DNA of 64,000 nt, taken from assembly GCA_001683985.1 (NCBI GenBank), contig MAEO01000044.1:1-64000 (forward strand), given 5' to 3'. The translations under genes and the position numbers were made by a program. Positions 21,695-54,686 of the stretch are shown here, one piece after another. The notes under the pieces are model-generated. The model made no database searches. It saw nothing but the letters and a program-made list of their open reading frames with translations, and was not told the DNA's origin. Source of the stretch: Smithella sp. M82. Its GTDB lineage: Bacteria; Desulfobacterota; Syntrophia; Syntrophales; Smithellaceae. Position 1 is the stretch's first letter, and the number at the start of each line of letters is the position of its first letter.

Positions 21695-21736
21695 GCATTA
21701 AATATTATGGCAAGACCCGAAAGGTAACTATATTTG

Positions 21737-23518: not shown

Positions 23519-23540
23519 AAATTAATAGAGGAGAAAAGTT

Positions 23541-24575: not shown

Positions 24576-24596
24576 GCATACCGAAAATACATTCTT

Positions 24597-26003
24597 ATGG
24601 ATATATTTAAATTTAGTAATAAAATTGCCGCCTTGCAGGACGACGGGAAAGCAGTTACGTATAAAGAATTGGATAATTTCTCTCGGCAAGTCGGTCATAT
24701 AATTGGTGAGCGCTGTCTGGCTTTTATATTGTGCAGAAATACAATTGGCTCATTGGCAAGTTACCTGGCCTGTCTGGATAATAAAATTGTACCGTTGCTT
24801 TTGGATTCTTCTTTGGACAGGGAATTACTTATAAATTTGCAAAAAACATACAAACCGCAATATATTTTTATGCCTGCCGACTTAACAAATGAAGATAACC
24901 TCGTCACTTTTGAGAAATACCTTTACACAATTATCAAAACAAACTTTGATGAAAAATACTCATTAAATAATGACCTGGCATTGTTGCTCACTACATCGGG
25001 CAGTACGGGCAGTCCAAAGGTTGTTAGGCTGAGCTGTGAAAACATACGCTCTAATGCGGAATCTATAGTTCAGTATTTAGAATTGAATGATTCAGAGAGG
25101 CCGATTACAACCCTTCCGATGCATTATTCTTATGGCCTCTCAATAATTAACAGCCATCTAGCGGTGGGTGCAACTATTTTATTGACCAGCAAGTCGCTAA
25201 TGCAGAAGGAATTCTGGAATTTTTTAAAGACCGAAGGTGCTACGTCTTTTGGTGGTGTACCGTACACTTATGAGATTTTGAATAAATTGAGATTTATCCG
25301 CATGGATTTGCCATCTTTACGGTCAATGACCCAGGCAGGCGGCAAGCTGTCACTGGAATTGCACAGGCATTTTGCTCAGTATGCTTCTGAAAAAAGTAAA
25401 CGTTTTTTTGTCATGTACGGTCAGACAGAGGCAACGGCTAGGATGGCATATTTGCCTTATGAAAAATCGCTCGAAAAGTGCGGAAGTATGGGTATAGCCG
25501 TACCGGGAGGCGAGCTTACGTTAATTGATACAGACGGTAAAGAAATTATCGCATCGGATGTTATCGGCGAGCTTGTATATAGAGGGCCGAATGTTACGCT
25601 GGGATACGCTGAATGCGGCGCGGATTTAGCTAAAGGTAATGAAAGGCATGGTGTATTGGCCACAGGGGATATGGCTAAACGCGACGCGGATGGTTTTTAT
25701 TACATTCTCTACCGCAAAAAAAGATTTCTAAAGATATTCGGCAATCGCGTCAATCTAGACGAAATAGAGCATATGATAAAAAGTGCGTTCCCGAAGCTGG
25801 ACTGCGCCTGCGCAGGAACAGATGATAACATGTATATTTTTCTCACCAACAAGAAAATTGCTCCCGAAGTAAAGACATATATTTCTGAAAAGACAAAGTT
25901 AAACCCGTCGGCGTTCAAAACTGTGGTTATTGATAATATACCAAAGAATGAAGCAGGGAAGACATTATATGTAAAACTGGCGAAGTATTATGATGGATTA
26001 TAA
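24597..26003 (+). CDS. AMP-dependent acyl synthetase/ligase
   Basis: 468 residues, a compact class I adenylate-forming enzyme. The P-loop is LLLTTSGSTGSPK (about 136-148). Later motifs are MYGQTEATARM, ATGDMAKRDADGFYYI and the C-terminal Lys in NEAGKTLYVK. It is distinct from the GC-rich ligase at 16311. It overlaps the following luxE-like gene by 14 bases, and luxE overlaps luxC, so the three are translationally coupled. It probably activates an acid for loading onto the ACP or onto LuxE. Confidence 0.87.
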   Translation: MDIFKFSNKIAALQDDGKAVTYKELDNFSRQVGHIIGERCLAFILCRNTIGSLASYLACLDNKIVPLLLDSSLDRELLINLQKTYKPQYIFMPADLTNEDNLVTFEKYLYTIIKTNFDEKYSLNNDLALLLTTSGSTGSPKVVRLSCENIRSNAESIVQYLELNDSERPITTLPMHYSYGLSIINSHLAVGATILLTSKSLMQKEFWNFLKTEGATSFGGVPYTYEILNKLRFIRMDLPSLRSMTQAGGKLSLELHRHFAQYASEKSKRFFVMYGQTEATARMAYLPYEKSLEKCGSMGIAVPGGELTLIDTDGKEIIASDVIGELVYRGPNVTLGYAECGADLAKGNERHGVLATGDMAKRDADGFYYILYRKKRFLKIFGNRVNLDEIEHMIKSAFPKLDCACAGTDDNMYIFLTNKKIAPEVKTYISEKTKLNPSAFKTVVIDNIPKNEAGKTLYVKLAKYYDGL

Positions 26004-27084
26004 TGAAATATTAAATATACCGCCCTATTCTCTTAATAGAACTGAAAAACACAGGCTATTGAATGAAAGACTTATAGCTTTGTCAAGGTTGCACTATGCT
26101 TCATGCAAAAGTTACAAAAGGATGGTCGATGCCTTGGCGTGTGATTTAGAACAAGTCAAAGATTATTATGACTTGCCATTTTTGCCGGTTAGTCTTTTTA
26201 AAGAATTTGATTTACTGAGCGTTGATAAAACAGAAGTTTTTAAAACCATGACTTCTTCAGGCACAACGGGCAAGGCTGTATCGAAGATTTATCTTGACCG
26301 GGTAACTTCCAATAATCAGCAGAAGACTTTGATTAAGATAGTATCCGATTTTACCGGTTCTGCCCGTATGCCGATGCTTATTATTGACAGTCCGTCTGTG
26401 GTTAAAAATAGAGTAATGTATTCCGCCAGAGGTGCCGGAATACTTGGATTCTCAATGTTCGGCGTCGACAAAACTTATGCCCTGGATGATGATATGAATA
26501 TTGATATTCAGGGAATTGCATCTTTTTTGGATAAACATAAAGACAAAACTATTTTGCTGTTTGGCTTCACCTTTATGATTTGGCAGCATTTTTATAAAAA
26601 ACTATTTAAACATTTTGACGAAAAAGGTCTTAAACTTGATTTATCAAAAGGAATACTGATTCATGGCGGTGGTTGGAAAAAACTTGTCAGCGATGCGATT
26701 TCACCGAAAGAATTTAAACGTTGTTTGAAAGAAATATGCGGTATCGTGAAGGTACATGACTACTATGGTATGGTAGAACAAACAGGATGCATATACATGG
26801 AATGCGAATATGGTCATTTGCATGCCAGTATATTTTCTGATGTAATCACCAGACGGGCCATCGATTTTAAGCCTTGTGAACTTGGCGAGATGGGAATTAT
26901 CCAAGTGGTATCCATGTTGCCTGAATCCTATCCCGGGCATTCATTGCTTACCGAGGATGAAGGCATAATTTTGGGTGAGGATGATTGTTCGTGTGGAAGA
27001 AAAGGTAAATACTTTAGAGTGGAAGGTCGACTTAAAAATGCAGAGATGAGGGGATGCAGTGATACCTACGCAATTAAGTTTTGA
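25990..27084 (+). CDS. LuxE-like acyl-protein synthetase
   Basis: 364 residues of the LuxE/PaaK adenylating group. The P-loop-like motif reads TMTSSGTTGKAVSK (about 90), with FGFTFMIWQHF, ILIHGGGWKKL and YGMVEQTGCIYMECEYGHL further on, a LuxE pattern. In luciferase operons LuxE activates a fatty acid and passes it to LuxC for reduction to aldehyde. Here luxC follows at once (overlap 26 bases), so the pair is kept, but luxA/B are absent. Tandem ATGs start the gene. Confidence 0.87.
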   Translation: MMDYNEILNIPPYSLNRTEKHRLLNERLIALSRLHYASCKSYKRMVDALACDLEQVKDYYDLPFLPVSLFKEFDLLSVDKTEVFKTMTSSGTTGKAVSKIYLDRVTSNNQQKTLIKIVSDFTGSARMPMLIIDSPSVVKNRVMYSARGAGILGFSMFGVDKTYALDDDMNIDIQGIASFLDKHKDKTILLFGFTFMIWQHFYKKLFKHFDEKGLKLDLSKGILIHGGGWKKLVSDAISPKEFKRCLKEICGIVKVHDYYGMVEQTGCIYMECEYGHLHASIFSDVITRRAIDFKPCELGEMGIIQVVSMLPESYPGHSLLTEDEGIILGEDDCSCGRKGKYFRVEGRLKNAEMRGCSDTYAIKF

Positions 27085-28267
27085 TAACGTAACACTATTA
27101 TTTCCGAAAAAATTGAACTGGGAAAAATGGAAACAACAAAAGAGTGATATTCCTTTTTCGGATTCCGTTGTTGAATTTTTGAACGCTCTTTCTTCTTTGT
27201 TGCTGAAGGATAAAGGAATAAGAAATTATACCGATATAGTGACTTTTGCTTTTTTCTGTCGCAAGGCCAATATCTTGACATTAAAGAAGGAGCATAGCTC
27301 TGCGGAATTAAGGCTGGGAAGGGGGATTTTATTTCACGTTGCGCCCTCTAACGTCCCGATAAACTTTGGTTACTCCCTGGTTGCCGGCTTATTGAGTGGC
27401 AATCGTAACGTAGTGCGCGTCTCTGCAAAGGAATTTCCGCAGGTAGATATTGTTGCACGCGCTATAGCATTGCTGTCAGAAAAATATCAAAATGTGACAG
27501 ACAGGATAGTGTTGGTGCGGTACGAAAGATCCAGTAATGCTACGACGGCATTTTCCGCCGTTTGCGATGTCCGGATAATATGGGGCGGTGATGAAACCAT
27601 AGCGCAAATAAGGCAAAGCCCTATTCCTCCCCGTTCATTCGATGTGACGTTCGCCGACAGGTATTCTTTGGCAGTCATCAATGCAGATGAATTGATCCAT
27701 GAACCGGAGATGAAAAAACTCGCTGCATCCTTCTACAACGACACCTATCTGTTCGATCAAAACGCCTGTTCGGCACCGCACCTGCTGATTTGGCTTGGAA
27801 ACAGAGAAAATATTCAGGCTGCTCAGGAAAAGTTTTGGAACAGTGTGCATGAGGTTGTTCGAGAAAAGTATGAACTTCAACCGGCATTGGCAGTGAATAA
27901 ACTCACTGCGTTTTATCGTCAAGCAGTTGCGATGCCGGTTAAGAAAGAAGCCTCTCAAGATAACCTTGTTTGGCGAGTAGTGCTGGAAAAGTTACCTGAT
28001 AACATAGATGAATTTCGCTGTGCGGGAGGATATTTCACAGAATTCATAGCGTCCTCAATTGATGAGATTGCCCCCATAATCAAAAATAAGTACCAGACGT
28101 TGGGTTATTATGGAATTAAACGGGATTTACTCACTAATTTTGTAATTGGCAATCGATTACCGGGATTAGATCGCCTTGTGCCCATTGGCGAAACGACAGC
28201 ATTTGCTCTCACCTGGGATGGTTATGACCTGATCAAGACACTGACAAGAAGAGTATCTGTAATGTAA
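27059..28267 (+). CDS. LuxC-like acyl-CoA/acyl-protein reductase
   Basis: 402 residues of the aldehyde-dehydrogenase-like LuxC family. It has HVAPSNVPINFGYSLVAGLL (about 98), a nucleotide-binding site, and the acyl-accepting cysteine in DQNACSAPHLL (Cys237). It reduces an activated acyl group to the aldehyde with NADPH. The GTG start at 27059 is preceded by GAGGGG and lies inside the luxE-like gene. With no luciferase nearby, the aldehyde probably feeds a biosynthetic step in this cluster. Confidence 0.87.
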   Translation: MIPTQLSFDNVTLLFPKKLNWEKWKQQKSDIPFSDSVVEFLNALSSLLLKDKGIRNYTDIVTFAFFCRKANILTLKKEHSSAELRLGRGILFHVAPSNVPINFGYSLVAGLLSGNRNVVRVSAKEFPQVDIVARAIALLSEKYQNVTDRIVLVRYERSSNATTAFSAVCDVRIIWGGDETIAQIRQSPIPPRSFDVTFADRYSLAVINADELIHEPEMKKLAASFYNDTYLFDQNACSAPHLLIWLGNRENIQAAQEKFWNSVHEVVREKYELQPALAVNKLTAFYRQAVAMPVKKEASQDNLVWRVVLEKLPDNIDEFRCAGGYFTEFIASSIDEIAPIIKNKYQTLGYYGIKRDLLTNFVIGNRLPGLDRLVPIGETTAFALTWDGYDLIKTLTRRVSVM

Positions 28268-39491: not shown

Positions 39492-40076
39492 TCATCCGGA
39501 ATTTTCATTTTTTATTTTCCGGTAATTGATAATATTTTTTCTATGATTAAACAAGATCAACAGGAAAGTAGCCAGCGCTCCGGATGTTGCGACAAATTGC
39601 CAGTCAAGAATTAAAGCCTGACCGCAAGCAAGCGTAAAAACCATAAAGAACGATGCGATAAAAGTGATTCGGAAAATTCCGTAAACAATAAGCCAGACTG
39701 CTGCCGAAGCAAGAGCAGCCCATGGTGCGACAAGAAGCATAAAGCCCAAGTAATTGGCCACTCCCTTGCCGCCACGAAAACTATGAAAACAGGGAAAGCT
39801 GTTTCCTAAAACAAGAAAAAAACCAGCCCACGGCAGCAATTGTTTTTCTAAAAAATAAATTGCCACAGCCGCGACCGCTATTGCCCTGCCGATATCCAGC
39901 AGAAAAACAAATGCCGCCCAAGCAAATCCTGCCTGACGGTAAACATTTGTAGTTCCCGCATTGCCGCTGAAACTCAGGCGTGGATCCTTCCTGCCGGTCA
40001 GTTTAAAAAAAATAACAGCAAAATTTACGGAACCGGCAAGGTAAGCTGGCAGATAAATTAAAAATGTTTTACCCAT
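39492..40076 (-). CDS. plsY: PlsY-like glycerol-3-phosphate acyltransferase (divergent)
   Basis: 194 residues with about five membrane helices. PlsY motif 2 reads SGNAGTTNVYRQAG (usual SGNIGATNV), motif 3 reads FRGGKGVAN, and motif 1 (YLAGSVNFAV) departs from GSIP-G. PlsY transfers acyl groups from acyl-phosphate to glycerol-3-phosphate. The gene follows the lipid locus on the same strand, separated only by a repeat element. It may be dedicated to unusual acyl chains, though it could also be the housekeeping enzyme; no plsX is in the window. Confidence 0.85.
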   Translation of the reverse strand: MGKTFLIYLPAYLAGSVNFAVIFFKLTGRKDPRLSFSGNAGTTNVYRQAGFAWAAFVFLLDIGRAIAVAAVAIYFLEKQLLPWAGFFLVLGNSFPCFHSFRGGKGVANYLGFMLLVAPWAALASAAVWLIVYGIFRITFIASFFMVFTLACGQALILDWQFVATSGALATFLLILFNHRKNIINYRKIKNENSG

Positions 40077-40101: not shown

Positions 40102-40260
40102 CCTCCGCTGGCGCAAAGTCGGGCGAATATTCAGGAGGCGTAAGTCCGGCGAATGCCGGATGTCGCGTAGTGACGGAGGTGGATAAAGGATTACCTGTAA
40201 CCTAAATGAAAATTACGGCTACATTAACGCTTCCACCCCCTTAATCCCCCGCCAACGGGG
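40102..40260. repeat. ~155-bp dispersed repeat, copy 1
   Basis: Starts CCTCCGCTGGCG, contains AGTGACGGAGGTGGAT near 40175 and ends CCCCTTAATCCCCCGCCAACGGGG. The same landmarks occur in reverse orientation at 45865-46013. It also holds CCGGCGAATGCCGG, a palindrome, near 40145. No coding capacity. It separates plsY from the lipid locus. Confidence 0.65.
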
Positions 40261-40281
40261 AATACGCAAAACAAATACTTT

Positions 40282-41145
40282 TTACAAATTTACCTTAATC
40301 CAATCTGGTGGATGCATCCTTCCCCTCGTCACATCCTTCATCTTAAGACCTTTGATATATTCACACATTATATCCTCTTTATAAATCCAAGCGTCGAATA
40401 TCAACATATCTCCGGTCATATTAACCGGTATAACCCGCCCCAGATATTCTTCTTTCTTTTTAGTTTTTTGATAAATTATTCTTTTTTCAAATCCTACGGG
40501 GAAAGAAACAATACCGGCAAAGCGCTGACCCCAGACACATGCCGCATGCATTGTCGCATCCATTGGAAAAGGCGAACCGAGTAAATTTTCAGCGGCTTCA
40601 TGGTCCCCGCCGGCAAGATAAGCCAACGCACCTTCAGAAGAAACCGATAGGTCACCCACAATATTCCGGTAAGCGGTCCCAAAAGGAACCAGTTCACGGT
40701 AAATAGTAGTCGAAGGTACGCTGATACATTCCCCTTTCAGTTTATCCAACACACGAAAATGATGCGTAACAACCTCTTTCGGATTAATTGTACAGAACTC
40801 CACCCGCGCGTGTTCAACTTCGCGGCTGATGGTTCCTGTTTTTGATTTCATGGAAGTTAAAAGTGTAGCTGCAATAATTCCACTCCCGGAATTTTCCACA
40901 TCAACAATAACCGGTTGATTTTCGATATCCTGTGTGATTGTCAGAAAGCGAGAAAAGGCAGCGTTCTGCAGACAATTTATTTCTGTTCGCGGATAATTTT
41001 GTTTGACCGCCCGAGCCAGAAGAATAAGTGATTCTACTGCGGGCAGGATCACCTTACCTTCCAGACAGTGATCCCTTAAATAGGAATGAATCTCTATTTC
41101 ACAGAAATGCCTTTTCTTCTGATTTAAGCCGGAAATGATTTCCAT
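40282..41145 (-). CDS. Stand-alone PKS-type dehydratase (double hotdog)
   Basis: 287 residues from the ATG at 41145 (a longer frame to 41202 only adds antisense of the thioesterase 3' end). The N-terminal hotdog has HCLEGKVILP, an exact HxxxGxxxxP catalytic motif. The C-terminal hotdog has FPMDATMHAACVWGQ, matching the D-x-x-x-Q/H element. This is the layout of polyketide synthase DH domains, here as a separate protein. It would dehydrate a beta-hydroxyacyl-ACP. It overlaps the thioesterase gene by 22 bases. It is last gene of the lipid locus. Confidence 0.8.
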   Translation of the reverse strand: MEIISGLNQKKRHFCEIEIHSYLRDHCLEGKVILPAVESLILLARAVKQNYPRTEINCLQNAAFSRFLTITQDIENQPVIVDVENSGSGIIAATLLTSMKSKTGTISREVEHARVEFCTINPKEVVTHHFRVLDKLKGECISVPSTTIYRELVPFGTAYRNIVGDLSVSSEGALAYLAGGDHEAAENLLGSPFPMDATMHAACVWGQRFAGIVSFPVGFEKRIIYQKTKKKEEYLGRVIPVNMTGDMLIFDAWIYKEDIMCEYIKGLKMKDVTRGRMHPPDWIKVNL

Positions 41146-41600
41146 AATTGAACCGTTTTCGGATCCACGGCCACGGGAGTGCCCGAAAGATTCAGTGCGC
41201 AATGTTTGGTAAAACCGGTACAGATTATGTGTCCTTTTTCCTGATGCGTGATCAGGTAGTCGAATTGCAGACGTACTCTTTCCAGATTGACCGGTCGCGT
41301 GTGAATATACATCAAATCATCATAATAAAGAGGCTGATAGAAACTGACACCCAAATCAAAAATAGGATAAACATAACCGCTATTCTCGATTTCCTTGTAG
41401 GGATAAGCAAGATCGCGCATCAGCGACGTCCGGCCGAATTCAAAATAACGCATATAATTGGAATGATACACCACTTGCGAACGATCCGTATCGATATACA
41501 AAACCCTGTACACCGAGCGATGCCAGACCAGACCGCTGGTGAGATCGCGCACATAACGTTCATCATTGTATATTTCAGGTTTAAAAGGTTTGGGCCTCAT
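41124..41600 (-). CDS. 4HBT-family acyl-CoA/acyl-ACP thioesterase
   Basis: 158 residues, a single hotdog of the YbgC/4-hydroxybenzoyl-CoA type. The catalytic region reads YIDTDRSQVVYHSNYMRYFE (about 34-53), with the conserved Asp kept; SQ replaces the usual xG. It may release the finished acyl chain from the ACP. Three bases after the ketosynthase stop and overlapping the dehydratase start, so it is firmly within the operon. Confidence 0.85.
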   Translation of the reverse strand: MRPKPFKPEIYNDERYVRDLTSGLVWHRSVYRVLYIDTDRSQVVYHSNYMRYFEFGRTSLMRDLAYPYKEIENSGYVYPIFDLGVSFYQPLYYDDLMYIHTRPVNLERVRLQFDYLITHQEKGHIICTGFTKHCALNLSGTPVAVDPKTVQLWKSFPA

Positions 41601-41603
41601 TTT

Positions 41604-42869
41604 CTATACTCCTCTGAAAATTACGCAGCAATTTGTTCCGCCAAATCCAAAAGCATTGGAAAGAGCAACCTCATATTTATGTTTGCGGGCTTCATTAGGA
41701 ACGACGTCAATATCCGAAAACTCAGGATCAGGAATATGATTAATCGTCGGCAGGATGATGCCTTTTTTCATTCCTTCAATAGTCAGAGCCGCTTCGATAG
41801 CCGCCGTCGCTCCCAGAGTATGCCCGAGCTGAGACTTGTTTGATGAAACGGGAATTTTTTCTATTTTTTTACCGAACACTTCCCTCAGACATTTTACTTC
41901 CGTGCTGTCGCCTTTAGGTGTGGAAGTGCCATGAGCATTTATATACTCGATATTTTCCGGTTTCAATCCGGCATCATCGATAGTTTCGCGAATAGCCCTG
42001 ATGATGGTCGGCATATTGGGGCTGGTATAATGATGAGCATCTGATGTCCATCCGACACCTAGAATTTCGGCTTTTGGTTTAAGACCGTACATTTTCATAA
42101 CTTCCTCAGCCGCCAGAACAACAACACCCGCGCCTTCCGAAAGAACAAAGCCCCTGCGGTCAACACTGAAAGGACGCGATGCCAGCGCCGGGTTATCATA
42201 AGCGCGATCTTTGGAATTAACTTTAATAGTGGCGTTCATATTGGCAAAACCGTGAATCAGCTCCGGTAAAATGGGAGTATCGGCGCCTCCGGCCAGAACG
42301 AAATCGCAATCACCGTCTCTGATCATTCTTGCCCCTATGCCCATAGCGTGATTACCCGAAGCGCACGCGCCCTGCGGCGAAAAAATAGGCCCGGTAAACT
42401 TCAACAGCATTCCCGCCTTGCCGGACGGAAGGTTTGCGCACAAATTAGGCAACAGATACGGACTTACCCGGAGCGGGCCGCGATGTTCCAAATCGTGAAC
42501 CGCGACTCGAAAAGCGTCAGAACCGTTAAGCGCTGAACCGATTAGGCAGGCCATTCGGGGCCCAATTTCGGCATTAATTTCAATTCCGGCATTCTGCAAA
42601 GCTTCCTTGCAGACCGCCATAGTCAAAATAACAAAAGCCGCGTTCCAATTATACACTTCTTTTGCGTCGGTGAAATCAAGCTCCAGCGGATACCAGTTCG
42701 GTATTTCTCCGACGACATCGCAGGCAGATTCGACTTTACAGCGGGTTACTTTGCGGAAACCAGCTTCTCCTTTAACCGCCCTTCTCCATGTCTTTTCAAA
42801 AGTACTGCCCAGCGGAGTGGCCGCACCGTAACCGACAACAAAGACTTTTCTGTTCTTGGGAGCTCTCAT
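41604..42869 (-). CDS. Beta-ketoacyl-ACP synthase 1 (FabF-like)
   Basis: 421 residues with a complete KAS I/II triad: Cys169 in QGACASGNH, His313 in NAHGTSTPKGD and His350 in SQLGHTLGA. The glycine-rich C-terminal FGFGGTN is present. It condenses acyl-ACP with malonyl-ACP. The nucleophile context differs from housekeeping FabF (usual ACATG), suggesting a specialised substrate. It and the second ketosynthase (43037) are only moderately alike and probably act as a pair or on different chain lengths. Confidence 0.9.
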   Translation of the reverse strand: MRAPKNRKVFVVGYGAATPLGSTFEKTWRRAVKGEAGFRKVTRCKVESACDVVGEIPNWYPLELDFTDAKEVYNWNAAFVILTMAVCKEALQNAGIEINAEIGPRMACLIGSALNGSDAFRVAVHDLEHRGPLRVSPYLLPNLCANLPSGKAGMLLKFTGPIFSPQGACASGNHAMGIGARMIRDGDCDFVLAGGADTPILPELIHGFANMNATIKVNSKDRAYDNPALASRPFSVDRRGFVLSEGAGVVVLAAEEVMKMYGLKPKAEILGVGWTSDAHHYTSPNMPTIIRAIRETIDDAGLKPENIEYINAHGTSTPKGDSTEVKCLREVFGKKIEKIPVSSNKSQLGHTLGATAAIEAALTIEGMKKGIILPTINHIPDPEFSDIDVVPNEARKHKYEVALSNAFGFGGTNCCVIFRGV

Positions 42870-43036: not shown

Positions 43037-44290
43037 CTAACCATTCCTGCGCAAAACCAGGCAGGAGTTGCATCCGCCAAATCCAAAAGCGTTTTTCAGA
43101 ACAAACTCCTGTTTTAATTTTCTTGCGCCCTCGGCAACACAGTCAATTTCAATTTCTTTATCCGGAATATAATTAATAGTGGGTAACAATGTGTCTCTTA
43201 TCATGCCTTCCATAGCAAATATCGCCTCTATCGCACTGGATGCGCCCATCGCATGGCCTAGCTGCGATTTATTCGCCGATACCGGTGGCACTTTATTACC
43301 GAAAATATTACGCAGCGCATCGGCCTCTACCTTATCTCCTATTTTTGTTGAAGTCGCGTGCGCGTTGACCGCGTCAATGTCTTGCGGCCGCAAGCCGGCA
43401 TTGGCAATCGCCTCTTCCATACATCTTTGCACCGTTGTCAAATTCGGTGAAACAAAATGACCGGCATCCGATGTCATTGACCATCCGGCCATTTCAATAT
43501 TTGATTTAAGCCCGTGAGCTTTGACGAATTCATCCGTTGCTAAAATAATGCAACCCGCGCCTTCAGAAACCACAAACCCACGGCGGTTAACGGAAAACGG
43601 CCGGCTGGTTTTCTTCGGTAACTCTTCCGGCTGACCTTCTTTCGGACGATATGCGCCGTTCATCGTGGCAAATCCCGCAACGATTGGCTCTACCAGAGGA
43701 AAATCCACCGCCCCGCCGATAACCACATCCGCCATGTTTCTTTGCAACAACATCTCGCCCATGATGAGCGAAGTAATTCCCGTGGCACAAGCCGTTATCG
43801 TCGAACAAATCGGCCCTGTCGCTCCCGTAAGAATGGAAACCTTTCCGCCCACCATGTTAATACAGGAATTGGGATTGGTAAAAGGATGAGGCATTTTCCC
43901 TTCTTTAACCATCAAACGATCAGCCTGTAAAACAGCATCCACTCCTCCGACCGCCGTACTGAAAGTAATTGCCACGCGCGGCGCTATTTCCGGAGTTATC
44001 TCAATTCCGCTTTTTTTAAGCGCCCGATGCACAACCAACAATGCATATTTGAAAATAGGTGATGTCCAGTGCGCCAAATCCCGCGGCTGCAAGAAAGGAT
44101 ATGAGCGGGTATCAATTTCTGCAACTTCACCGGCAACACGCACCGGAAAACCGGGACTGAGCGGAAACCTAGTCAATTCCCCTATGCCGCAACCTCCGGT
44201 AACGGCCCTTTGCCATTGAGCCTCCAAATCCGTACCCAAAGAAGACACCGTGTCATAACCTAATATTAAAGTTTTCTTTGAACCCACCAC
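43037..44290 (-). CDS. Beta-ketoacyl-ACP synthase 2 (FabF-like)
   Basis: 417 residues, also with a full triad: Cys168 in ITACATGITSL, a His in NAHATSTKIGD and a His in SQLGHAMGA, then FGFGGCN. ACATG is closer to housekeeping FabF than in ketosynthase 1. It starts at GTG (44290 or the next codon), and the end of the GIY-YIG gene overlaps its start by 38 bases. It is in the same direction as the rest of the locus. Confidence 0.9.
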   Translation of the reverse strand: MVGSKKTLILGYDTVSSLGTDLEAQWQRAVTGGCGIGELTRFPLSPGFPVRVAGEVAEIDTRSYPFLQPRDLAHWTSPIFKYALLVVHRALKKSGIEITPEIAPRVAITFSTAVGGVDAVLQADRLMVKEGKMPHPFTNPNSCINMVGGKVSILTGATGPICSTITACATGITSLIMGEMLLQRNMADVVIGGAVDFPLVEPIVAGFATMNGAYRPKEGQPEELPKKTSRPFSVNRRGFVVSEGAGCIILATDEFVKAHGLKSNIEMAGWSMTSDAGHFVSPNLTTVQRCMEEAIANAGLRPQDIDAVNAHATSTKIGDKVEADALRNIFGNKVPPVSANKSQLGHAMGASSAIEAIFAMEGMIRDTLLPTINYIPDKEIEIDCVAEGARKLKQEFVLKNAFGFGGCNSCLVLRRNG

Positions 44291-44570
44291 TTAAATCCCG
44301 CCAGCTTGGATTTTCTTGATTAACAAGTTTGTCCTTTTTTTCTCTACGCCAATTTTTAATTTCTTTTTCTCTTATTATTGCAACATTAATATCCCTTGTT
44401 TCTTCAAAGTAAACTAACTTACTCAAATTATACTTTTCAGAAAAGCCTGGAATCAATTTATTCTTGTGTTCATAAATTCTACGACTCAAATCATTAGTAA
44501 CACCGACATAGATTACTTTATTATTCCAATTGGTCAACAAATAGACATAATACTTCTTTGTGAAGACCAT
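44253..44570 (-). CDS. GIY-YIG nuclease-domain protein
   Basis: 105 residues with a single GIY-YIG fold: YYVYLLTNWNNKVIYVGVTN (the G-Y and V-YVG strands), RRIYEHK and FSEKYNLSKLVYFEE, EKEIKNWRREKK. Stand-alone proteins of this kind are common in anaerobes and their role is unclear (not UvrC). It probably belongs to accessory DNA inserted between the radical SAM and ketosynthase genes. Its stop is inside the ketosynthase 2 gene, so translation may be coupled. Confidence 0.88.
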   Translation of the reverse strand: MVFTKKYYVYLLTNWNNKVIYVGVTNDLSRRIYEHKNKLIPGFSEKYNLSKLVYFEETRDINVAIIREKEIKNWRREKKDKLVNQENPSWRDLSGGFKENFNIRL

Positions 44571-44824: not shown

Positions 44825-45823
44825 TTACCAAGAAATAAAGTGATACAGTTTGGCAAACATTTCATACACTTCGATCCAGTTTTGCAAATCTTTGGTCGAC
44901 TTCAAATGTTCGCGTTTATTGACCATTACCCAGCTCATGTGCGCCGCACCGTCTTTACATGTGGAGCAATCGCGCGTCGCCGACGTACAGCAGCGATGAA
45001 CTGTTTTTAAATCGGATGCCCAGCGGACAAAGTGAATCAGGCGGCGGGGACGATTTTCTCTATTGTCCAAGGATTCCGTAACGGAGGGACACTCACTCCA
45101 GCCGAAGCTGCGTCCCATCATTTTTCCGGTGGTAATGACTTCGTGATAATATTTGCAGGAAATTACAGTTTGCGGATAATGGTCGAGCATTTCGTCCATT
45201 TCAAAACGCAGATCTTTCAGCTCGCCCTCTTGCCAGGAAAATCCGTCCACACCCTCATCGTTCGATAAAAGCTGCAGATGAACTTTTAAACCGACGTCGG
45301 CGATTCTTTTGATTACCGGTTCAATTTTCCCCACCTGACGCGGTGTAATCGTATAGAGATAATAAGTGTATTTGTCTCCTTCATAATTTTTACTGGAAAC
45401 GGCAAAGGTATCGCGTCCCCGAAGAACCTTTTCATCTTCACTGTCGCCCCACAACGAAATTCCCACTATCATATCGGGAAATTTATCGCGGGGAACCTTA
45501 ATCAGGCCGTTGGTGGCACAATACGTAGGCAGGCGTTTGTAGAAAGCCTCGACGCGCTCCATACACAAAGTCGGCTCGCCGCCGATGAGAATTGCCAGAT
45601 TAACTCCCCGCTCTTTTTCACGATCAATGAATTCTTCCCACTTTTTGATATCCATTTCTTCCACTGCCGCCTGATGTTCTCCCGAAGAAAAGAAAAAACA
45701 TCCCTTGCAGCGCAAATTGCAGCGGTTGGTTACATCATATATGGAACTGCGGATATTCAAGTTGGAAATCCGTCTGTATCTTTCATACCAATCTTTATCC
45801 AGTAATGAACTGACTGTTTTCAT
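44825..45823 (-). CDS. Radical SAM enzyme A of the lipid locus
   Basis: 332 residues. The 4Fe-4S site is CNLRCKGCF (Cys at about 33, 37, 40), and LIGGEPTL is the GGEP SAM-binding strand. A C-terminal cysteine cluster reads RCCTSATRDCSTC and could hold an auxiliary iron-sulfur site. The protein is clearly related to radical SAM enzyme B (46033) over its whole length. Closeness to ketosynthase, ACP and dehydratase genes suggests that the substrate is an acyl chain or acyl-ACP. The reaction is unknown. Confidence 0.85.
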   Translation of the reverse strand: MKTVSSLLDKDWYERYRRISNLNIRSSIYDVTNRCNLRCKGCFFFSSGEHQAAVEEMDIKKWEEFIDREKERGVNLAILIGGEPTLCMERVEAFYKRLPTYCATNGLIKVPRDKFPDMIVGISLWGDSEDEKVLRGRDTFAVSSKNYEGDKYTYYLYTITPRQVGKIEPVIKRIADVGLKVHLQLLSNDEGVDGFSWQEGELKDLRFEMDEMLDHYPQTVISCKYYHEVITTGKMMGRSFGWSECPSVTESLDNRENRPRRLIHFVRWASDLKTVHRCCTSATRDCSTCKDGAAHMSWVMVNKREHLKSTKDLQNWIEVYEMFAKLYHFISW

Positions 45824-45864
45824 CAGAACTTCCTAATTTATACTCGCAATGACATTATGCGTGT

Positions 45865-46013
45865 CCCCCGCTGGCGGGGGATTAAGGGGATGGATAGTTT
45901 TATAGCTTTTGATTGCAGGGCATACTTTCCAAATGTACTGCAATTGGGACTGCTCTTGTAACAGTCTTTACAACATCCACCTCCGTCACTACCTGACACC
46001 TCCGCCAGCGGAG
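45865..46013. repeat. ~155-bp dispersed repeat, copy 2 (inverted relative to copy 1)
   Basis: Begins CCCCCGCTGGCGGGGGATTA and ends ACACCTCCGCCAGCGGAGG; contains CATCCACCTCCGTCACTACC. Each landmark is the reverse complement of one in 40102-40260. It lies in the 209-base gap between radical SAM genes A and B. Confidence 0.65.
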
Positions 46014-46032
46014 GACAAGTAATGACAAATTT

Positions 46033-47133
46033 TCATGTTGCTGCCGCATGCGGCGGCTCTATAATATCATTACAAAGATTTTTGCCTTTTTCGTAACCCA
46101 TTACCCAAACCGCCAGATAAGTATCCACATAATCCAGCCACGATTTAAACGTATCCATACTATCTACATGCCTGTAAAGACGCGCCGTAACAACCGCAGA
46201 ACCCGCGGCGTAATGACGGCAATCTACACAATCCGTATCCGGCACGCAACAGGCAACAGACCTGTCCCAGTTCAAATCTGTCCGGTACTGCCTGAAAGAC
46301 CTTCCCAGTCCGATATCCTGCGAAGGATTCTGACGGGGATACGAGCAGCCGTATAAATCGTGCAAACCTTTTTTATGAGTGTGCGCCACGGCATTATAAA
46401 CTGAAAAAAGAACATTTTGCGGATATTTACCCAAAAGATCTATCATTGTCAATTGCATCCGTTTAAGAGAGTCATCATCATGCCGCAGATTTCCCGTATA
46501 ACCGACCGGTGAGGAAAAAACATTAAAGGTCAATTTACAATTGTGGGCGACAAGCTCTTCGGTGACTTCTTTTACTTCATCAATATTATTCCGCGTAAAG
46601 GTATAAACAAAAACTGCGCGCGGATCATTTTCGTAATTCTCGATCTGCTTCTTTAAAAGGTTTTTAGCCTTTCTAATTCTCAGGCTGGTTTCATCATTTC
46701 CCCAAACGGAAATATGCAGCTTATAGCCGACCGAGTCCGGTATTTTTTTAAAGCCGTTGGTGGCGATGCTACCCAGCGGCATTTCCTGATAACAAACATC
46801 GAGCAATTCCGGAACCAGAGAAGGTTCTGCTCCCGCCAGAACAACATAGGTAATGCCGCGCGCCTTCTCCGCCCGCATCAGTTCGCGCCATGCCTCAACA
46901 TCGCCAATTTCTTTGGCAAATTGTTTTGTCCCTTCATAATAATAACACCCGTCGCAACGGATATTACAGCGGTTGGTCATATCGTAGGTCGATTCCCGAA
47001 GAAAAAAATATTTCCTCACTTTTTCCCAGCGCTCTTTAACTTCCGTCTGGGCTAAAAGCTCGGAAAATTTCGGTTTGTTTGATTCCGGATTTAATTTACG
47101 ATTAACCTGCATAAATTTGACAGAACCCATCAA
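46033..47133 (-). CDS. Radical SAM enzyme B of the lipid locus
   Basis: 366 residues. CNIRCDGCYYY (Cys at about 57, 61, 64) is the radical SAM cluster site. The SAM strand is LAGAEPSL, with AGAEP instead of GGEP. The C-terminal cluster ACCVPDTDCVDC parallels that of enzyme A, and NRCNIRCDGC, SVWGND and YTFTRNN align with SLWGDS and YTITPRQ of A. It is directly downstream of the ACP gene (stop-to-start gap zero to one base). The two enzymes look like products of an old duplication with divided roles. Confidence 0.85.
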   Translation of the reverse strand: MMGSVKFMQVNRKLNPESNKPKFSELLAQTEVKERWEKVRKYFFLRESTYDMTNRCNIRCDGCYYYEGTKQFAKEIGDVEAWRELMRAEKARGITYVVLAGAEPSLVPELLDVCYQEMPLGSIATNGFKKIPDSVGYKLHISVWGNDETSLRIRKAKNLLKKQIENYENDPRAVFVYTFTRNNIDEVKEVTEELVAHNCKLTFNVFSSPVGYTGNLRHDDDSLKRMQLTMIDLLGKYPQNVLFSVYNAVAHTHKKGLHDLYGCSYPRQNPSQDIGLGRSFRQYRTDLNWDRSVACCVPDTDCVDCRHYAAGSAVVTARLYRHVDSMDTFKSWLDYVDTYLAVWVMGYEKGKNLCNDIIEPPHAAAT

Positions 47134-47406
47134 CTAATTTTTTGTGGCAAGTTTTTCTTCAATATATTCGGAAATAAGGCGTATGGTTTTTAATTTGGGA
47201 TAATCATCTTCGTCTATTGTAATATCGTATTCATCCTGTAAGATCAATGCGACAGTCGCCAGATCCATACTGTCAATGCCCAGTTCATCCACCAGATCCA
47301 TATCCGAATTAAAAGTATCTGCGGTAACGTCTTCCAATTTCAACTCATCAATAATAATTTCGGCCACGTGCCGTATAATGCCTTTGATATCTTGATTTAC
47401 AGGCAT
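47134..47406 (-). CDS. Acyl carrier protein 1 of the lipid locus
   Basis: 90 residues. The phosphopantetheine site is LGIDSMDLATVA, followed by a typical helix III stretch. AGGAGG lies six bases before the ATG at 47406, which is preferred over the GTG at 47409. It is different from acyl carrier protein 2 (51796) and from the glycan ACP (19568). It sits between the FabZ-like gene and radical SAM gene B. Confidence 0.92.
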   Translation of the reverse strand: MPVNQDIKGIIRHVAEIIIDELKLEDVTADTFNSDMDLVDELGIDSMDLATVALILQDEYDITIDEDDYPKLKTIRLISEYIEEKLATKN

Positions 47407-47442
47407 CACTATCCTCCTTAGAATAATTATTTATATTTACTT

Positions 47443-47838
47443 TTATCCATTTATTTTTTTAGCAGTCATATGTCCGCTACTTACAATATTTTCTTTCTTC
47501 ATTATTTTGAAAGAAAATGAAACATCATCACCCGCATCTTCAGAATTTATACTTATTGACAATTTATCCCCCGGCCTTACCGGTTGCATAAATCTGACTC
47601 TTCTTAGCGAATGTAACTGAAGCTGCATTCCTTTTTTAAGCGCTTCCTCTAAAATAGCCTGTTTAACTGCGGCAACCAAGGCTACTCCGGGAAGAATCGG
47701 TTCTCCCGGAAAGTGACCGGAAAACCAGGGAGAATCAGCCGGCACATCCCCTAATGCCTCAATATGATTACCATTAGTTGCCTTTATTTCTTTTAATAAA
47801 CTCCACTGATTGCCCAATAAATATACCTCATTGGCCAA
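47443..47838 (-). CDS. FabZ-like hotdog protein without the catalytic glutamate
   Basis: 131 residues, one hotdog domain. The FabZ motif GHFPGEPILPG is intact with His42, but the following GVALVAAVKQ has Ala56 where FabZ has Glu (GVLILEAMAQ). Loss of this residue should weaken or abolish dehydration, so it may be a binding or thioesterase-like protein, or act by another mechanism. The rest (RRVRFMQPVRPGDKLSI) is normal for the family. It is first in the group FabZ-like, ACP, radical SAM B. Confidence 0.82.
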   Translation of the reverse strand: MANEVYLLGNQWSLLKEIKATNGNHIEALGDVPADSPWFSGHFPGEPILPGVALVAAVKQAILEEALKKGMQLQLHSLRRVRFMQPVRPGDKLSISINSEDAGDDVSFSFKIMKKENIVSSGHMTAKKING

Positions 47839-49028: not shown

Positions 49029-49832
49029 TTACCGTTTAATCGTCATTACATCTCTGCCAATCAAATCGGTAATCGGCACAACTCTCAAACATTTATCCAC
49101 AAGTCCCTTCAGTATCTTTTCAATTTCCGTCAGTAAAGCAGCACTGTTTTTTTCACGGTGCGGATTAACATCGTGCAGCAAAATGATATCGTCCGCTTTT
49201 ACTTTTTTAAGAATTCTCGAACTGAGATTCTTAATGTTACGGTTACCGGCATCACCGGCACGGCAACTGAATGTTACGCAAAACAATCCAAGTTTATTCA
49301 GCACCTGCGGCAGCTTGGGGCTGATTATGCCTACCGGCGGGCGGAAAGCCAGAACGTTTACGCCCATTTTTTTGAGAACTTCCTGCGCCCGTAACACTTC
49401 CTGATAGAGATAATTATAGCTTCCCAGCATCAAGAAAGGATTATGGTGAAAAGAATGATTGCCGATAGTGTGACCGCGGTTGATTATTTCTTTGATTATT
49501 TCAGGATATTTTAAAGCATTGACACCGGAGACAAAGAAAGTTGCTTTCACGGCATACTTATCCAGCAACGCAAGTATTTGTCTTGTCGTCGGTTCATCGG
49601 GGCCGTCATCGAAAGTCAGGGCAACCATATTTTTACCGGTATTACCGCGGCTGATTACAGGCAGGTAAAAACTACTCCGATAACAAAATGACGCGACGAC
49701 ACAAAGTAAAATATAAAAAAGCGCGATTACTATGGCAAGCCATGAATTGATAAAGAAAGCAGCCGCGGCGACAGACAAGAAAACTATTCCTGTGATTTGG
49801 GCCGGACTTAAGGATGAAGATTTGTTTTTCAT
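49029..49832 (-). CDS. Polysaccharide deacetylase (NodB-domain) membrane-anchored protein
   Basis: 267 residues from the ATG at 49832; a frame extending to 49928 is read from a dispersed repeat and is not used. Two N-terminal hydrophobic helices (about 10-45) are followed by the CE4 domain: ALTFDDGPDE (catalytic Asp and metal Asp) and GNHSFHHN (metal His pair), then FRPPVG and LLHDV. Such enzymes remove N-acetyl groups from glycans on the periplasmic side. AAAGGATG precedes the start. Whether it belongs functionally to the lipid locus is unclear. Confidence 0.88.
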   Translation of the reverse strand: MKNKSSSLSPAQITGIVFLSVAAAAFFINSWLAIVIALFYILLCVVASFCYRSSFYLPVISRGNTGKNMVALTFDDGPDEPTTRQILALLDKYAVKATFFVSGVNALKYPEIIKEIINRGHTIGNHSFHHNPFLMLGSYNYLYQEVLRAQEVLKKMGVNVLAFRPPVGIISPKLPQVLNKLGLFCVTFSCRAGDAGNRNIKNLSSRILKKVKADDIILLHDVNPHREKNSAALLTEIEKILKGLVDKCLRVVPITDLIGRDVMTIKR

Positions 49833-49852
49833 TGATACATCCTTTACCCATT

Positions 49853-49927
49853 TGTCATGTCGAACCAAGAAAGACATCTTAAAGATGTTAAAAAAGATTT
49901 CTCGTCTCTTCGTTCCTCGAAATGACA
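49853..49927. repeat. GTCATTTCGA...TCGAAATGAC dispersed repeat, copy 3
   Basis: Begins TGTCATGTCGAACC and ends CCTCGAAATGACA, with AAAAAGATTTCTCGTCTC inside as in copy 5. The shortest copy, about 75 bases. Confidence 0.65.
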
Positions 49928-50058
49928 AATAAAGCTAATGGATTCCGGCTGTTTACTCCGGAAGGGAACCCCGGCGCATGCCGGGCATGCTGGGTATGCC
50001 TGGGTATGTCGGATGCGCCGGAATGACGCCTCTTTGAAATTCACGCGACTACGCGAGG

Positions 50059-50210: not shown

Positions 50211-51560
50211 TTACTGGATTAGGTATTCCCACAGAGGCCCCGTAAATCCGCGCCTATACAATTTCGGCAAAATGCGCGTTGCCTTGGCTTCGCCGGCGCC
50301 GATAAGCCAGTTCACGCGACCGTTAGCCTTATTTTCCACCATCTTCATTATCTCTTCAACCGATATTCCCGGCGAGCGGTAAAATACAGGCGGCAGGATA
50401 TTTTCATCCGCCGTAATCTGCCCTTCTCGCAAAGCAATCTCATACAAGGCTGTGTGCGGATAGATGCGGACACCGCAAAAGAAGAAGAAAACCGCTTTTC
50501 CCAGAGAGTCTATTCCAGCCAAGGTATTTTGCAGAGTTTGTTTGTTTTCGCCAGGTCCGCCCAGCAAAAAATAATGGGCAACGTGCAACCCGGCATCAAG
50601 AGCATTTTTATGAGCTATAAAAACATTTTCCGACTTAAAAGGTTTGTGCAAGTTGGTCAGCACCGTATCCGATAAAGATTCCGTCCCGAATTCCACATGG
50701 GTCAATCCGGCTTCGGCCAACCGCTTAAAATAATCAGCCGGTGGAACTGTCGGAACAAAAAAACATCCCCAGGGAATGGAAACTTTTGCTTTAACAAAAG
50801 CCTCCGCGACCTCTCTACTGTGATCGTAACTGGCATTAAAGGCGGAATCGATGATGAAGATATATTTGGCGCCGGCATCCTGCAATTCGCGGGCGTTCTT
50901 AGCTATTTCCTGCGGAGGGTAAAACCGCATCCGACTGCCTTCAATGTGAGGATAAGTACAGTAACTGCACTGAAACGGACAACCTCTTTTTGTCTGCAGG
51001 TTAAGCATGCCGCCGTAAGAAAGATAAAAATTTGTATGTCGACCGGCCGGATCAAAATGCCTGTTGATCGCGCCGCTATACGGCTCGTAAACAATATTTG
51101 TCTTTTCCTTTGTCACAACACCGAGGATTTTTTTAATATCCGTTTTTTTCTCCAGAGCATCCAGAAGCTGCGCGAGCCTTTCACCTTCGCCGACAATTCC
51201 GTAATCGGCATCAAGCGCCTGCATGAACTCAACCGGAAAAATTGTAAAACCGCTCCCGCCCAGAATTATTTTCGCCTGGGAATTTGTTTTTACCTGACGA
51301 ATCAAATTCTGATATTCCGGCAAGAAGCTCCGGCAGTTGAGTACATCGGTATTGTCAATGTTTCTGATTGATATGCCGGCAAAATCAGGAGAAAATTCTT
51401 TGATCATCGCTTCCAGAGTTTCCGGATGGGAGAAATCGTTTAAATCAACAATTTTTACCTGGTAACGGGAATCCAGAGAACCGGCTACATAATCCAGTCC
51501 CAGCGGATATACGGGGTAAGGAATTCTAAGAGTATTTGCTGAAATTAGCAGTATTTTCAT
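50211..51560 (-). CDS. B12-binding-domain radical SAM protein of the lipid locus
   Basis: 449 residues. The N-terminal cobalamin-binding-like domain (1-135) begins MKILLISANTLRIPYPVYPL and has ILGGSGFTIFP and GIVGEGE, but no DxHxxG motif, so B12 may bind base-off without His or not at all. The radical SAM site CPFQCSYC is near residue 195, with GTESLSDTVL and LLGGPGENKQT later. Databases hold a lipid-biosynthesis B12/radical SAM group to which this looks similar (from memory). Adjacent to ACP 2, it may methylate or link carbons of an acyl chain. Confidence 0.85.
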   Translation of the reverse strand: MKILLISANTLRIPYPVYPLGLDYVAGSLDSRYQVKIVDLNDFSHPETLEAMIKEFSPDFAGISIRNIDNTDVLNCRSFLPEYQNLIRQVKTNSQAKIILGGSGFTIFPVEFMQALDADYGIVGEGERLAQLLDALEKKTDIKKILGVVTKEKTNIVYEPYSGAINRHFDPAGRHTNFYLSYGGMLNLQTKRGCPFQCSYCTYPHIEGSRMRFYPPQEIAKNARELQDAGAKYIFIIDSAFNASYDHSREVAEAFVKAKVSIPWGCFFVPTVPPADYFKRLAEAGLTHVEFGTESLSDTVLTNLHKPFKSENVFIAHKNALDAGLHVAHYFLLGGPGENKQTLQNTLAGIDSLGKAVFFFFCGVRIYPHTALYEIALREGQITADENILPPVFYRSPGISVEEIMKMVENKANGRVNWLIGAGEAKATRILPKLYRRGFTGPLWEYLIQ

Positions 51561-51795: not shown

Positions 51796-52065
51796 TCAGC
51801 CTTTTTTACGGTTATTAGAAATATATGTAGCCAGAGCGCGCACTGATGCAAAAACCTTAACGCCCAGTTGTTTGTTATCTATTTTAACGCCGTAGTCTTT
51901 TTCAATCATCATCACCAGTTCCAGAATATCAATGGAATCAATTCCCAGATCGCCCCCCACAAGACGTTCATCGTCTTTGATGTCTTCGGGGCCTACGTCA
52001 ATCAAACCCAGTGTATCAATAATTTTAACTTTAAGTTCACTTATCATTTTCTCAATCTGACTCAT
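51796..52065 (-). CDS. Acyl carrier protein 2 of the lipid locus
   Basis: 89 residues. The site GGDLGIDSIDILELVMMIEK contains the serine (about residue 44) for phosphopantetheine. The remainder is a normal ACP helix bundle with a basic end (NNRKKG). It differs from the locus ACP 1 mainly in the first helix and tail. The neighbouring B12-type radical SAM enzyme is the likely partner. Confidence 0.92.
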   Translation of the reverse strand: MSQIEKMISELKVKIIDTLGLIDVGPEDIKDDERLVGGDLGIDSIDILELVMMIEKDYGVKIDNKQLGVKVFASVRALATYISNNRKKG

Positions 52066-52232: not shown

Positions 52233-52643
52233 TTATCCTGTTGCATTGTTTCTCTGGTTTTCCAGCGGATTTGATCTTATTGCATTAATCTCATCACCCA
52301 GAACTTTTTCCAGCACAATTCTGACAACCCAACGTCCCAGCGCCTTGCTGTATTTGGGACCGGCAAGATAAATTCCCAACATCAAAAGCAGCCACGAGAC
52401 ACCGTAAATCAGCGGAATTCCCACGACTCCAAACATTGGCGATTTCAGCCAGGCGGCAATTCCACCTACTATGAATACTGCCGGTATGCCAAGAAAATAA
52501 CCGCAAAAAATCAAAACAAGACCAACAATCACGGTGGCCGTAAGTTTTTCCCTGAAAATACTTAAGTCAGCGTGTTCACATATTGCGTTTCGGCAAAATT
52601 CCTTCCGGGCAAAATAAAGCGCCGCCTTTTTTATTATGCTCAA
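52233..52643 (-). CDS. Small membrane protein of the lipid locus
   Basis: 136 residues. A soluble N-terminus (MSIIKKAALYFARKEFCRN) precedes two or three hydrophobic segments (about 35-60, 62-80, 82-102) and a basic/amphipathic C-terminal part (KALGRWVVRIVLEKVLGDEI). No family or catalytic motif was recognised. It lies between FabA and ACP 2, so it may anchor or help the pathway, but this is inference. Confidence 0.6.
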   Translation of the reverse strand: MSIIKKAALYFARKEFCRNAICEHADLSIFREKLTATVIVGLVLIFCGYFLGIPAVFIVGGIAAWLKSPMFGVVGIPLIYGVSWLLLMLGIYLAGPKYSKALGRWVVRIVLEKVLGDEINAIRSNPLENQRNNATG

Positions 52644-52725: not shown

Positions 52726-53316
52726 TTACTTTTCCATGATACCGCCTATAGAATATTTTGAACGAAGCGGATAATCTTTGTAGGCGATATCCTTAAAAAC
52801 TCCCGTCCGCGCCTGTCCTACAGTGGCAATCAATTCATTATCTATGTAAATGCGGCCGTCACCAATTACTATACTCGCGCCCGATTCCTTCAAAAGAGAA
52901 TAACGCCGCACATCAACTTCAAAACGAACACATTTGTTAAACGGACGAATCTGACCGTTAAAAGCTACTTCTCCGCAACCCAATGCCCTGCCCGTACCCA
53001 GCGAACCTTTCCAAACGCAGAAAAAACCAAGTAATTGCCAGATAGCGTCTACTCCCAGGCATCCGGGCTGTACCGGATCACCCGAAAAATGGCATTGAAA
53101 ATACCATGCATCCAGACGAATGTCCTGTTCAGCTATTATCTTTCCCTGCTTTCCGTCACTTTCTATCAACAGTATACGATCAACCATAAGAAAGGGAGGC
53201 GCAGGAAGTTTCGCGTCAAAATGTTCCGGAGGATCGGTTATCAGCCGGCCATAAGAAAAAGCAAGAAGCTCTTCAAAGTTGAAATGATCGCGCTTTAAAA
53301 ATTCCTGATATTTCAT
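52726..53316 (-). CDS. fabA: FabA-type 3-hydroxydecanoyl-ACP dehydratase/isomerase
   Basis: 196 residues. The signature CHFSGDPVQPGCLGVDAIWQ gives the catalytic His76 and Asp90 of FabA, with FGCHF-like and GRALGCGEVAFNGQI blocks also as in E. coli FabA. FabA dehydrates hydroxydecanoyl-ACP and isomerises the trans-2 to the cis-3 double bond, which lets unsaturated chains form without oxygen. Placing it first in the lipid locus suggests that the double bond is a starting point for later radical chemistry. The usual fabB partner could be one of the two ketosynthases. Confidence 0.93.
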   Translation of the reverse strand: MKYQEFLKRDHFNFEELLAFSYGRLITDPPEHFDAKLPAPPFLMVDRILLIESDGKQGKIIAEQDIRLDAWYFQCHFSGDPVQPGCLGVDAIWQLLGFFCVWKGSLGTGRALGCGEVAFNGQIRPFNKCVRFEVDVRRYSLLKESGASIVIGDGRIYIDNELIATVGQARTGVFKDIAYKDYPLRSKYSIGGIMEK

Positions 53317-53996: not shown

Positions 53997-54686
53997 ATGA
54001 ACAAGGCCGCCCTTCATAAAATCAGTTATGGTTTATATATCGTCACATCCGGGCAAGGAGATAAATTCAACGGTCAGATTGCCAACTCCATGTTTCAGGT
54101 AACCTCCAATCCGGCAACAATCGCCATAAGCATAAACAAAGAAAACTATAGTCATGAATTGATAAGATTCAGCCGCAAATTTGCGGTTTCCATTTTGTCG
54201 GAAGCAACGCCAATGACTTTCATCGGTCTTTTCGGCTTCAAAAGCGGACGCGATGTAAATAAACTTCAAAATGTAAAGACAAAAACAGGAATAACAGGCG
54301 TTCCTATAGTGGTGGAAAATACGGTTTCCTATATAGAGGTGGAACTGGAAAAAGAAATGGATTGCGGCACACACACGATTTTCGTGGGTAACATTGTCGA
54401 TTGTGACGTGGTAAGCAGTGACGAACCCATGACTTACGCTTATTACCAGAAGGTCAAGGGAGGAAAATCACCGAAAACTGCACCTACTTACATCAAAGAC
54501 GAACCTGCCGCCGGTGCGCAACCCTCTTCCAGATATGTTTGCAGTGTCTGCGGTTATGTTTATGACCCAGCTATAGGTGATCCCGATAACGGAATTGCTG
54601 CGGGAACAAAGTTTGAAGACTTGCCGGACTCATGGACGTGCCCTATCTGCGACGCGGATAAATCGAAATTCGAAAAAGAAAAATAA
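53997..54686 (+). CDS. hrb: High-molecular-weight rubredoxin (flavin reductase-rubredoxin fusion)
   Basis: 229 residues. The N-terminal FMN-binding flavin reductase domain (about 1-155) contains [21 protein letters not shown] short linker leads to the rubredoxin domain with [10 protein letters not shown] and CPICDAD, the two Cys-x2-Cys knuckles that bind iron. Such fusions feed electrons to flavodiiron oxygen or NO reductases in anaerobes. It stands alone, with no flavodiiron gene in the window. It supports a strict-anaerobe host. Confidence 0.9.

Follow-up and report, generated by a model that had tools for sequence, protein, structure and literature searches.

In Kuenenia, a type II fatty acid synthesis (FASII) cluster contains two radical SAM enzymes, Kuste3342 and Kuste3343, and is shared with Desulfotalea psychrophila (Rattray et al., PMC2649909). 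Both enzymes have been expressed in E. coli, but the proteins went undetected (Javidpour et al., PMC4790861). LipS1 and LipS2, another radical SAM pair, act in turn on a carrier-bound octanoyl chain, and the ligands of the LipS1 auxiliary cluster are a CC pair and an upstream cysteine (PMC9585515). In oxidative twitch/SPASM enzymes, auxiliary clusters accept an electron (PMC9012708). The 64,000-nucleotide stretch of Smithella DNA analysed here (the window) holds a FASII-like operon that can be set beside these systems. With the anammox ladderane cluster it shares the presence of two radical SAM genes in a FASII-like setting, a TIGR04072 protein, a polysaccharide-deacetylase-like protein, FabF-type ketosynthases and an acyl carrier protein (ACP). 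However, TIGR04072 is the only radical SAM protein in common; the second and third radical SAM enzymes differ, and the PlsY, thioesterase and PKS_DH-like genes set the layout apart.

The two differing enzymes, here called A and B, lie on the minus strand at the positions where the preliminary description had placed two radical SAM genes:

44825..45823, minus strand: enzyme A, radical SAM, GGEP subfamily, 332 aa
45698..45721, minus strand: CX3CX2C of A (C35, C39, C42; C35-NLR-C39-KG-C42), invariant in 85 sequences
45572..45583, minus strand: GGEP of A (residues 81-84), invariant in 85 sequences
45089..45091, minus strand: C245 of A (ECPSV), extra invariant Cys and candidate auxiliary-cluster ligand, 85/85
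44957..44992, minus strand: C-terminal CC-x5-DC-x2-C of A (C278, C279, C286, C289; RCC-TSATR-DC-ST-C), 85/85
46033..47133, minus strand: enzyme B, radical SAM, AGAEP subfamily, 366 aa
46945..46968, minus strand: CX3CX2C of B (C56, C60, C63; C56-NIR-C60-DG-C63), 79/79
46822..46836, minus strand: AGAEP of B (residues 100-104), 78/78 sequences with a letter at the site
46345..46347, minus strand: C263 of B, extra invariant Cys, 79/79
46219..46251, minus strand: C-terminal CC-x4-DC-x2-C of B (C295, C296, C302, C305; ACC-VPDT-DC-VD-C), 79/79

The listed start of B is a TTG, with an ATG as the next codon. Both proteins score above the cut-off for PF04055, and Pfam, the CX3CX2C site and the fold models all identify them as radical SAM enzymes. 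They are 28% identical over 310 aa (BLASTP, E=2e-38), from before CX3CX2C through the C-terminal cysteines, confirming the earlier suggestion that A and B are related outside the radical SAM core. The shared C-terminal cysteine cluster was also correctly seen; its spacing, given as CC-x5/6-DC-x2-C, was not, having counted the D, and is x5 in A and x4 in B. What that description did not contain is the further invariant cysteine in each protein, C245 in A and C263 in B, and the fatty-acid-synthase-like operon around the pair.

To describe conservation, we used 85 distinct orthologues of A and 79 of B. The three radical SAM and four C-terminal cysteines are invariant throughout, so that the cluster is kept in every close homologue in the set, and the spacer from CC to the next C is fixed, at 6 residues in A (85/85) and 5 in B (79/79). 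This invariance places the cysteine match far beyond chance. The SAM motif is GGEP in 85/85 A, whereas B has AGAEP in 78/78, with the second G of GGE changed to A and E-P kept. AGAEP had been noted before as a departure from the expected SAM-binding motif. The motif is as reported, but a loss of SAM binding does not follow, AGAEP being the norm of the B subfamily, in the window and in two further loci (L159 and L186). Since it is invariant in B and common to solo B-type relatives, it characterises the subfamily rather than reflecting decay, and the view of B as a degenerate enzyme is disfavoured. Where dS was computable against related genomes, dN/dS is 0.03-0.10, with some dS values saturated; A and B are under strong purifying selection. 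Mean conservation between orders is 78.7% for A, the highest in the operon, compared with 70.1% for B, 69.7% for KS1 and 37.5% for FabZ. This is as expected if A is a central catalyst.

AlphaFold2 models have a mean pLDDT of 91.9 for A and 84.7 for B, with residues 1-17 and 296-300 of B below 50. The nearest solved folds are the SPASM/twitch enzymes anSMEcpe, BlsE, SkfB, SuiB and CteB (Foldseek, TM ~0.5), with an rmsd of 7-10 in the longer alignments, large once the C-terminal part is included. By sequence, matches to PDB entries are limited to the radical SAM core, the best by profile being SkfB. A and B resemble SPASM/twitch enzymes (SkfB, BtrN, MoaA, anSMEcpe, SuiB) in their CX3CX2C site, partial TIM barrel and C-terminal extension with several conserved cysteines, but they have C...CC-x4/5-DC-x2-C in place of the canonical motifs: twitch CX9-15GX4C, SPASM CX2CX5CX3C and MoaA CX2CX13C are found in 0/85 A and 0/79 B. 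The C-terminal part is best called a twitch-like variant, and from its cysteines each protein likely binds an auxiliary Fe-S cluster. No NCBIfam model reaches its cut-off for either protein, and the only Pfam match is the generic Radical_SAM domain. We found no description of the pair or triad in the open-access literature, though subscription journals or preprints may contain one. A and B appear to form an unnamed radical SAM family without a curated model.

The pair sits within a conserved gene order, ACP2-(KS)-TIGR04072-polysaccharide deacetylase-FabZ-ACP1-B-A-KS2-KS1-thioesterase-PKS_DH-like-PlsY. The window contains the following members, with two more genes beyond ACP2:

39492..40076, minus strand: PlsY, glycerol-3-phosphate acyltransferase, position conserved
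40282..41202, minus strand: polyketide-dehydratase-like protein, PKS_DH_N just under the Pfam cut-off, position conserved
41124..41600, minus strand: 4HBT/YbgC-type thioesterase, TIGR00051 above cut-off
41604..42869, minus strand: KS1, FabF-type ketosynthase, Cys-His-His intact
43037..44290, minus strand: KS2, FabF-type ketosynthase, Cys-His-His intact
47134..47409, minus strand: ACP1, acyl carrier protein encoded immediately upstream of B, PP-binding Pfam, conserved order
47443..47838, minus strand: FabZ/ApeI-like 3-hydroxyacyl-ACP dehydratase, conserved order
49029..49928, minus strand: polysaccharide-deacetylase-like protein, kuste3351-like as in the anammox ladderane cluster
50211..51560, minus strand: TIGR04072 lipid B12-binding/radical SAM protein, 402.7 bits, cut-off 360
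51796..52065, minus strand: ACP2, second acyl carrier protein
52233..52643, minus strand: probable membrane protein, conserved, 136 aa, without a Pfam match
52726..53316, minus strand: FabA-type dehydratase/isomerase, in Syntrophales loci, NF003509 above cut-off

The serine motif of the attachment site is present in 70/70 ACP1 orthologues, and Cys-His-His is kept in all aligned orthologues of KS1 and KS2. With TIGR04072 above its cut-off near FASII genes, the window holds a TIGR04072-associated lipid cluster, and TIGR04072 is above cut-off in all eight pair-bearing genomes tested (8/8). Arylpolyene (APE) clusters are marked by a KS/chain-length-factor pair, a KR, ApeI/ApeP dehydratases and an aryl starter ligase. 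The A/B operon resembles them in its two KS, two ACP, ApeI-like dehydratase and thioesterase, and in Desulfobacterales also in an ApeP-like dehydratase, LolA and a fusion of MMPL with a methyltransferase; FabG occurs in these variants as well. Both KS keep Cys-His-His, and no aryl ligase was recognised. The operon differs from APE clusters in PlsY and in its three radical SAM genes, one of them of the B12 type.

Several other features of the region were recorded. A GIY-YIG ORF (44253-44570) lies between KS2 and A, overlapping the KS2 start. Of the compared loci, this one and that of the nearest Smithella (L035) are the only ones to have it, which suggests that it was inserted recently. A 40-nt inverted repeat (40232-40271 and 45855-45894, 88% complementary) lies in the intergenic gaps flanking the KS/A genes and is possibly a small genome-wide element. 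A flavin reductase-rubredoxin fusion (53997-54686) lies divergently beside the operon and is kept there in 19 of 46 longer loci. A separate block (21221-28267) encodes a FabA-like hotdog protein, a TPP enzyme, NeuB/SAF, an AMP ligase, LuxE and LuxC; it combines a luciferase-free acyl reductase module with a neighbouring synthase of the sialic-acid type.

The nearest records of the pair are from Smithella (Syntrophales), with 96% identity to a Smithella MAG. At E<=1e-15, 79 of the 149 genomes drawn from the order gave a match, nearly all with both proteins. Among 395 genomes drawn from the phylum, 27 have an A orthologue (70-100% identity), and each of these has a B homologue. In 110/111 loci B and A are neighbours on the same strand, separated by a median of 31 bases; the one exception lies at a contig end. 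Syntrophales, Desulfobacterales, Spirochaetes and one Planctomycetota MAG share the gene order, and Desulfobulbaceae also have pair loci. Culturable sulfate reducers with the pair include Desulfosarcina widdelii and Desulfatitalea alkaliphila. In one Desulfococcaceae genome (HSG9, L104), the A/B pair, FabZ and ACP1 are present, and KS1/KS2 do not come next after the pair. Viral contigs contain no relative, and a viral origin was rejected on that ground.

Full-length solo relatives exist for both the GGEP (A) and the AGAEP (B) type. All keep CC-x4/5-[D/H]C-x2-C or a close variant, and the C245 column is kept in those of A type. Four Planctomycetota genomes (L155:1513-10079, L156, L157 and L158) have a solo A-type gene directly adjoining lipS2, with lipoate ligases near. 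In these blocks lipS1 was identified in two of four, and some contain a GcvH-like carrier or HdrB-like genes; the A-type protein thereby adds a third radical SAM enzyme to a lipoate locus of the LipS1/LipS2 kind. Solo A-type genes are also found in Burkholderia, in Tistrella and on Alteromonas and Enterobacter plasmids, with PaaC-like diiron and hotdog genes as neighbours, and the Burkholderia locus has ACPs and an adenylation domain. No carrier protein lies beside the A-type gene in the Alteromonas and Enterobacter loci, and some family members may therefore work without an ACP. On these plasmids, a unit of PaaC-like diiron, A-type radical SAM and MaoC hotdog genes stands beside a Tn3-family transposase and a recombinase (L184:11180-13535, L185:11180-13535, L188:14180-16535). 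Identical protein accessions (e.g. WP_015068649.1) on marine Alteromonas plasmids and the Enterobacter hormaechei IncC plasmid pVIM-Exn692 point to recent transfer. Solo B-type genes occur in Methylomagnum, in the order ACP-TauD-radical SAM-NRPS, and in one Desulfobacterota genome (L159); in L159 and L186 the stretch around the AGAEP protein contains no A-type partner. The tree joins A to its solo relatives (support 85/78) and B to its own (94/88), in line with the old duplication proposed earlier. Because each protein falls with its own solo relatives, the duplication probably predates the operon; support for this split is moderate, and long branches meet there. A further radical SAM family, common in probable anammox genomes (PTO1314/L160-type), matches A over 241 columns and B over 238 at 99.8% profile-profile probability, its ADC-x2-C aligning with the DC-x2-C stretch of either. 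It differs in having ~25% identity, no CC pair and another genomic context.

Taken together, we favour, with a probability of about 0.52, the reading that A and B are ancient paralogues serving as a dedicated tailoring pair of a type-II FAS-like operon of anaerobes, with auxiliary Fe-S clusters, and that they modify an acyl chain bound to ACP1 on its way to a membrane lipid. KS1/KS2 and the dehydratases would build the chain carried by ACP1. B and A would then work as a heterodimer or in turn, each cleaving SAM at its CX3CX2C cluster and abstracting a hydrogen from the ACP1-bound chain; divided or sequential roles, as previously proposed, are plausible. The C-terminal cysteines with C245 in A or C263 in B would hold an auxiliary cluster accepting the substrate electron, and because of that the net reaction would most likely be oxidative. 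Whether this would be a dehydrogenation or the formation of a ring or C-C bond is a guess, as is the oxidative H-atom abstraction itself. The B12-radical SAM enzyme may modify the same chain, which the thioesterase and PlsY would release into glycerolipid. In favour of this reading are the homology of A and B through the C-terminus, their invariant cysteines, the near-constant pairing and gene order, the high conservation of A, the intact KS and ACP residues and the fold matches. Relatives elsewhere also have carrier-protein neighbours: lipS1-lipS2-LplA-GcvH-like, ACP-TauD-NRPS, and the Burkholderia ACPs with an adenylation domain. Counting against it are the absence of the canonical motifs, the TM-scores of only ~0.5, the restriction of PDB sequence matches to the core and the A-type genes that have no carrier protein beside them; operon association alone does not prove that the pair acts on an acyl chain. 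More tentatively, and on balance doubtfully, A and B would be the earliest noticed members of a radical SAM family with a GGEP and an AGAEP subfamily, and would jointly carry out a new radical reaction on the ACP-bound chain. That reaction could form a ring or a C-C bond or insert sulfur, and would lead to an undescribed membrane lipid shared by syntrophs and sulfate reducers.

The main rival to oxidative chemistry is that A and B, on the model of LipS2/LipS1, would insert sulfur into the ACP-bound chain one step after the other and use up their auxiliary clusters in doing so. Like LipS1/LipS2, which work in turn on carrier-bound octanoyl (PMC9585515), they are paired radical SAM enzymes with a putative carrier-bound acyl substrate. 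The C245...C278-C279 layout of A resembles the LipS1 CC pair with its upstream Cys, AbmM is among the fold matches, and the closest solo A relatives, in the four Planctomycetota genomes, adjoin lipS2 amid lipoate ligases, GcvH-like carrier and HdrB-like genes. However, A and B have no sequence similarity to LipS1/LipS2 beyond noise (best E 0.27), and the overall arrangement of auxiliary cysteines differs. The five C-terminal cysteines kept in A and B exceed the need of a sacrificial cluster, and we recognised no gene for a sulfur carrier or for cluster repair among those of the operon. On balance, sulfur insertion appears rather unlikely. That A alone is catalytic, with B as a regulatory or scaffolding subunit, would fit the deviation of B from GGEP and its poorly predicted C-terminal loop. 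Yet CX3CX2C and E-P are invariant in B, and AGAEP proteins occur in L159 and L186 without an A-type partner in the surrounding stretch, and we consider such a division of labour unlikely. Maturation of a peptide (RiPP) or protein, as by SkfB, is suggested by SkfB ranking first among PDB entries in the profile comparison and near the top in the fold comparison. Only the radical SAM core takes part in that match, and ACP, KS and dehydratases are the partners in every phylum. As the B-A gap is too short for a precursor gene and no RRE domain was detected, we rejected a RiPP maturase, leaving this reading very improbable.

The shared TIGR04072, polysaccharide-deacetylase-like, FabF-type ketosynthase and ACP genes, together with the linked lipid-type cluster published for D. 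psychrophila (PMC2649909), could also mean that the operon is a variant of the ladderane system (kuste3335-3352), A and B replacing kuste3342/3343. For comparison we used genome G623 (locus L175), inferred to be Kuenenia-like from gene order. Its kuste3342-matching gene encodes the TIGR04072 protein (439 bits; 35% identical to that of the window), and its kuste3343-matching gene an AhbD/NirJ-like SPASM protein similar to A over 69 residues of the core only. Three probable anammox genomes contain no A/B orthologue, down to E=1. Orthology of A and B with Kuste3342/3343 was rejected on these grounds, and they weigh, with the different layout given by PlsY, thioesterase and PKS_DH-like genes, against a ladderane variant, which seems improbable. 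One Desulfobacterota locus (L169:9102-18143) is closer to the anammox/Desulfotalea cluster than to the A/B type, as it combines an L160-type and an AhbD/NirJ-like radical SAM protein with a polysaccharide deacetylase, an ACP and a TIGR04072-like protein (38% to that of the window).

What appears new here is the unannotated radical SAM pair; the kind of FASII/lipid cluster that holds it is already known. The radical SAM family defined by the analysis also has solo members in Proteobacteria, and some of these lie on mobile plasmids. Ladderane biosynthesis is unsolved, and the A/B operon is a parallel FASII cluster with TIGR04072 but a different radical SAM pair. Comparing the two separates the role of TIGR04072 from features specific to ladderanes, and the presence of the parallel cluster in culturable sulfate reducers opens it to direct tests by lipid profiling.
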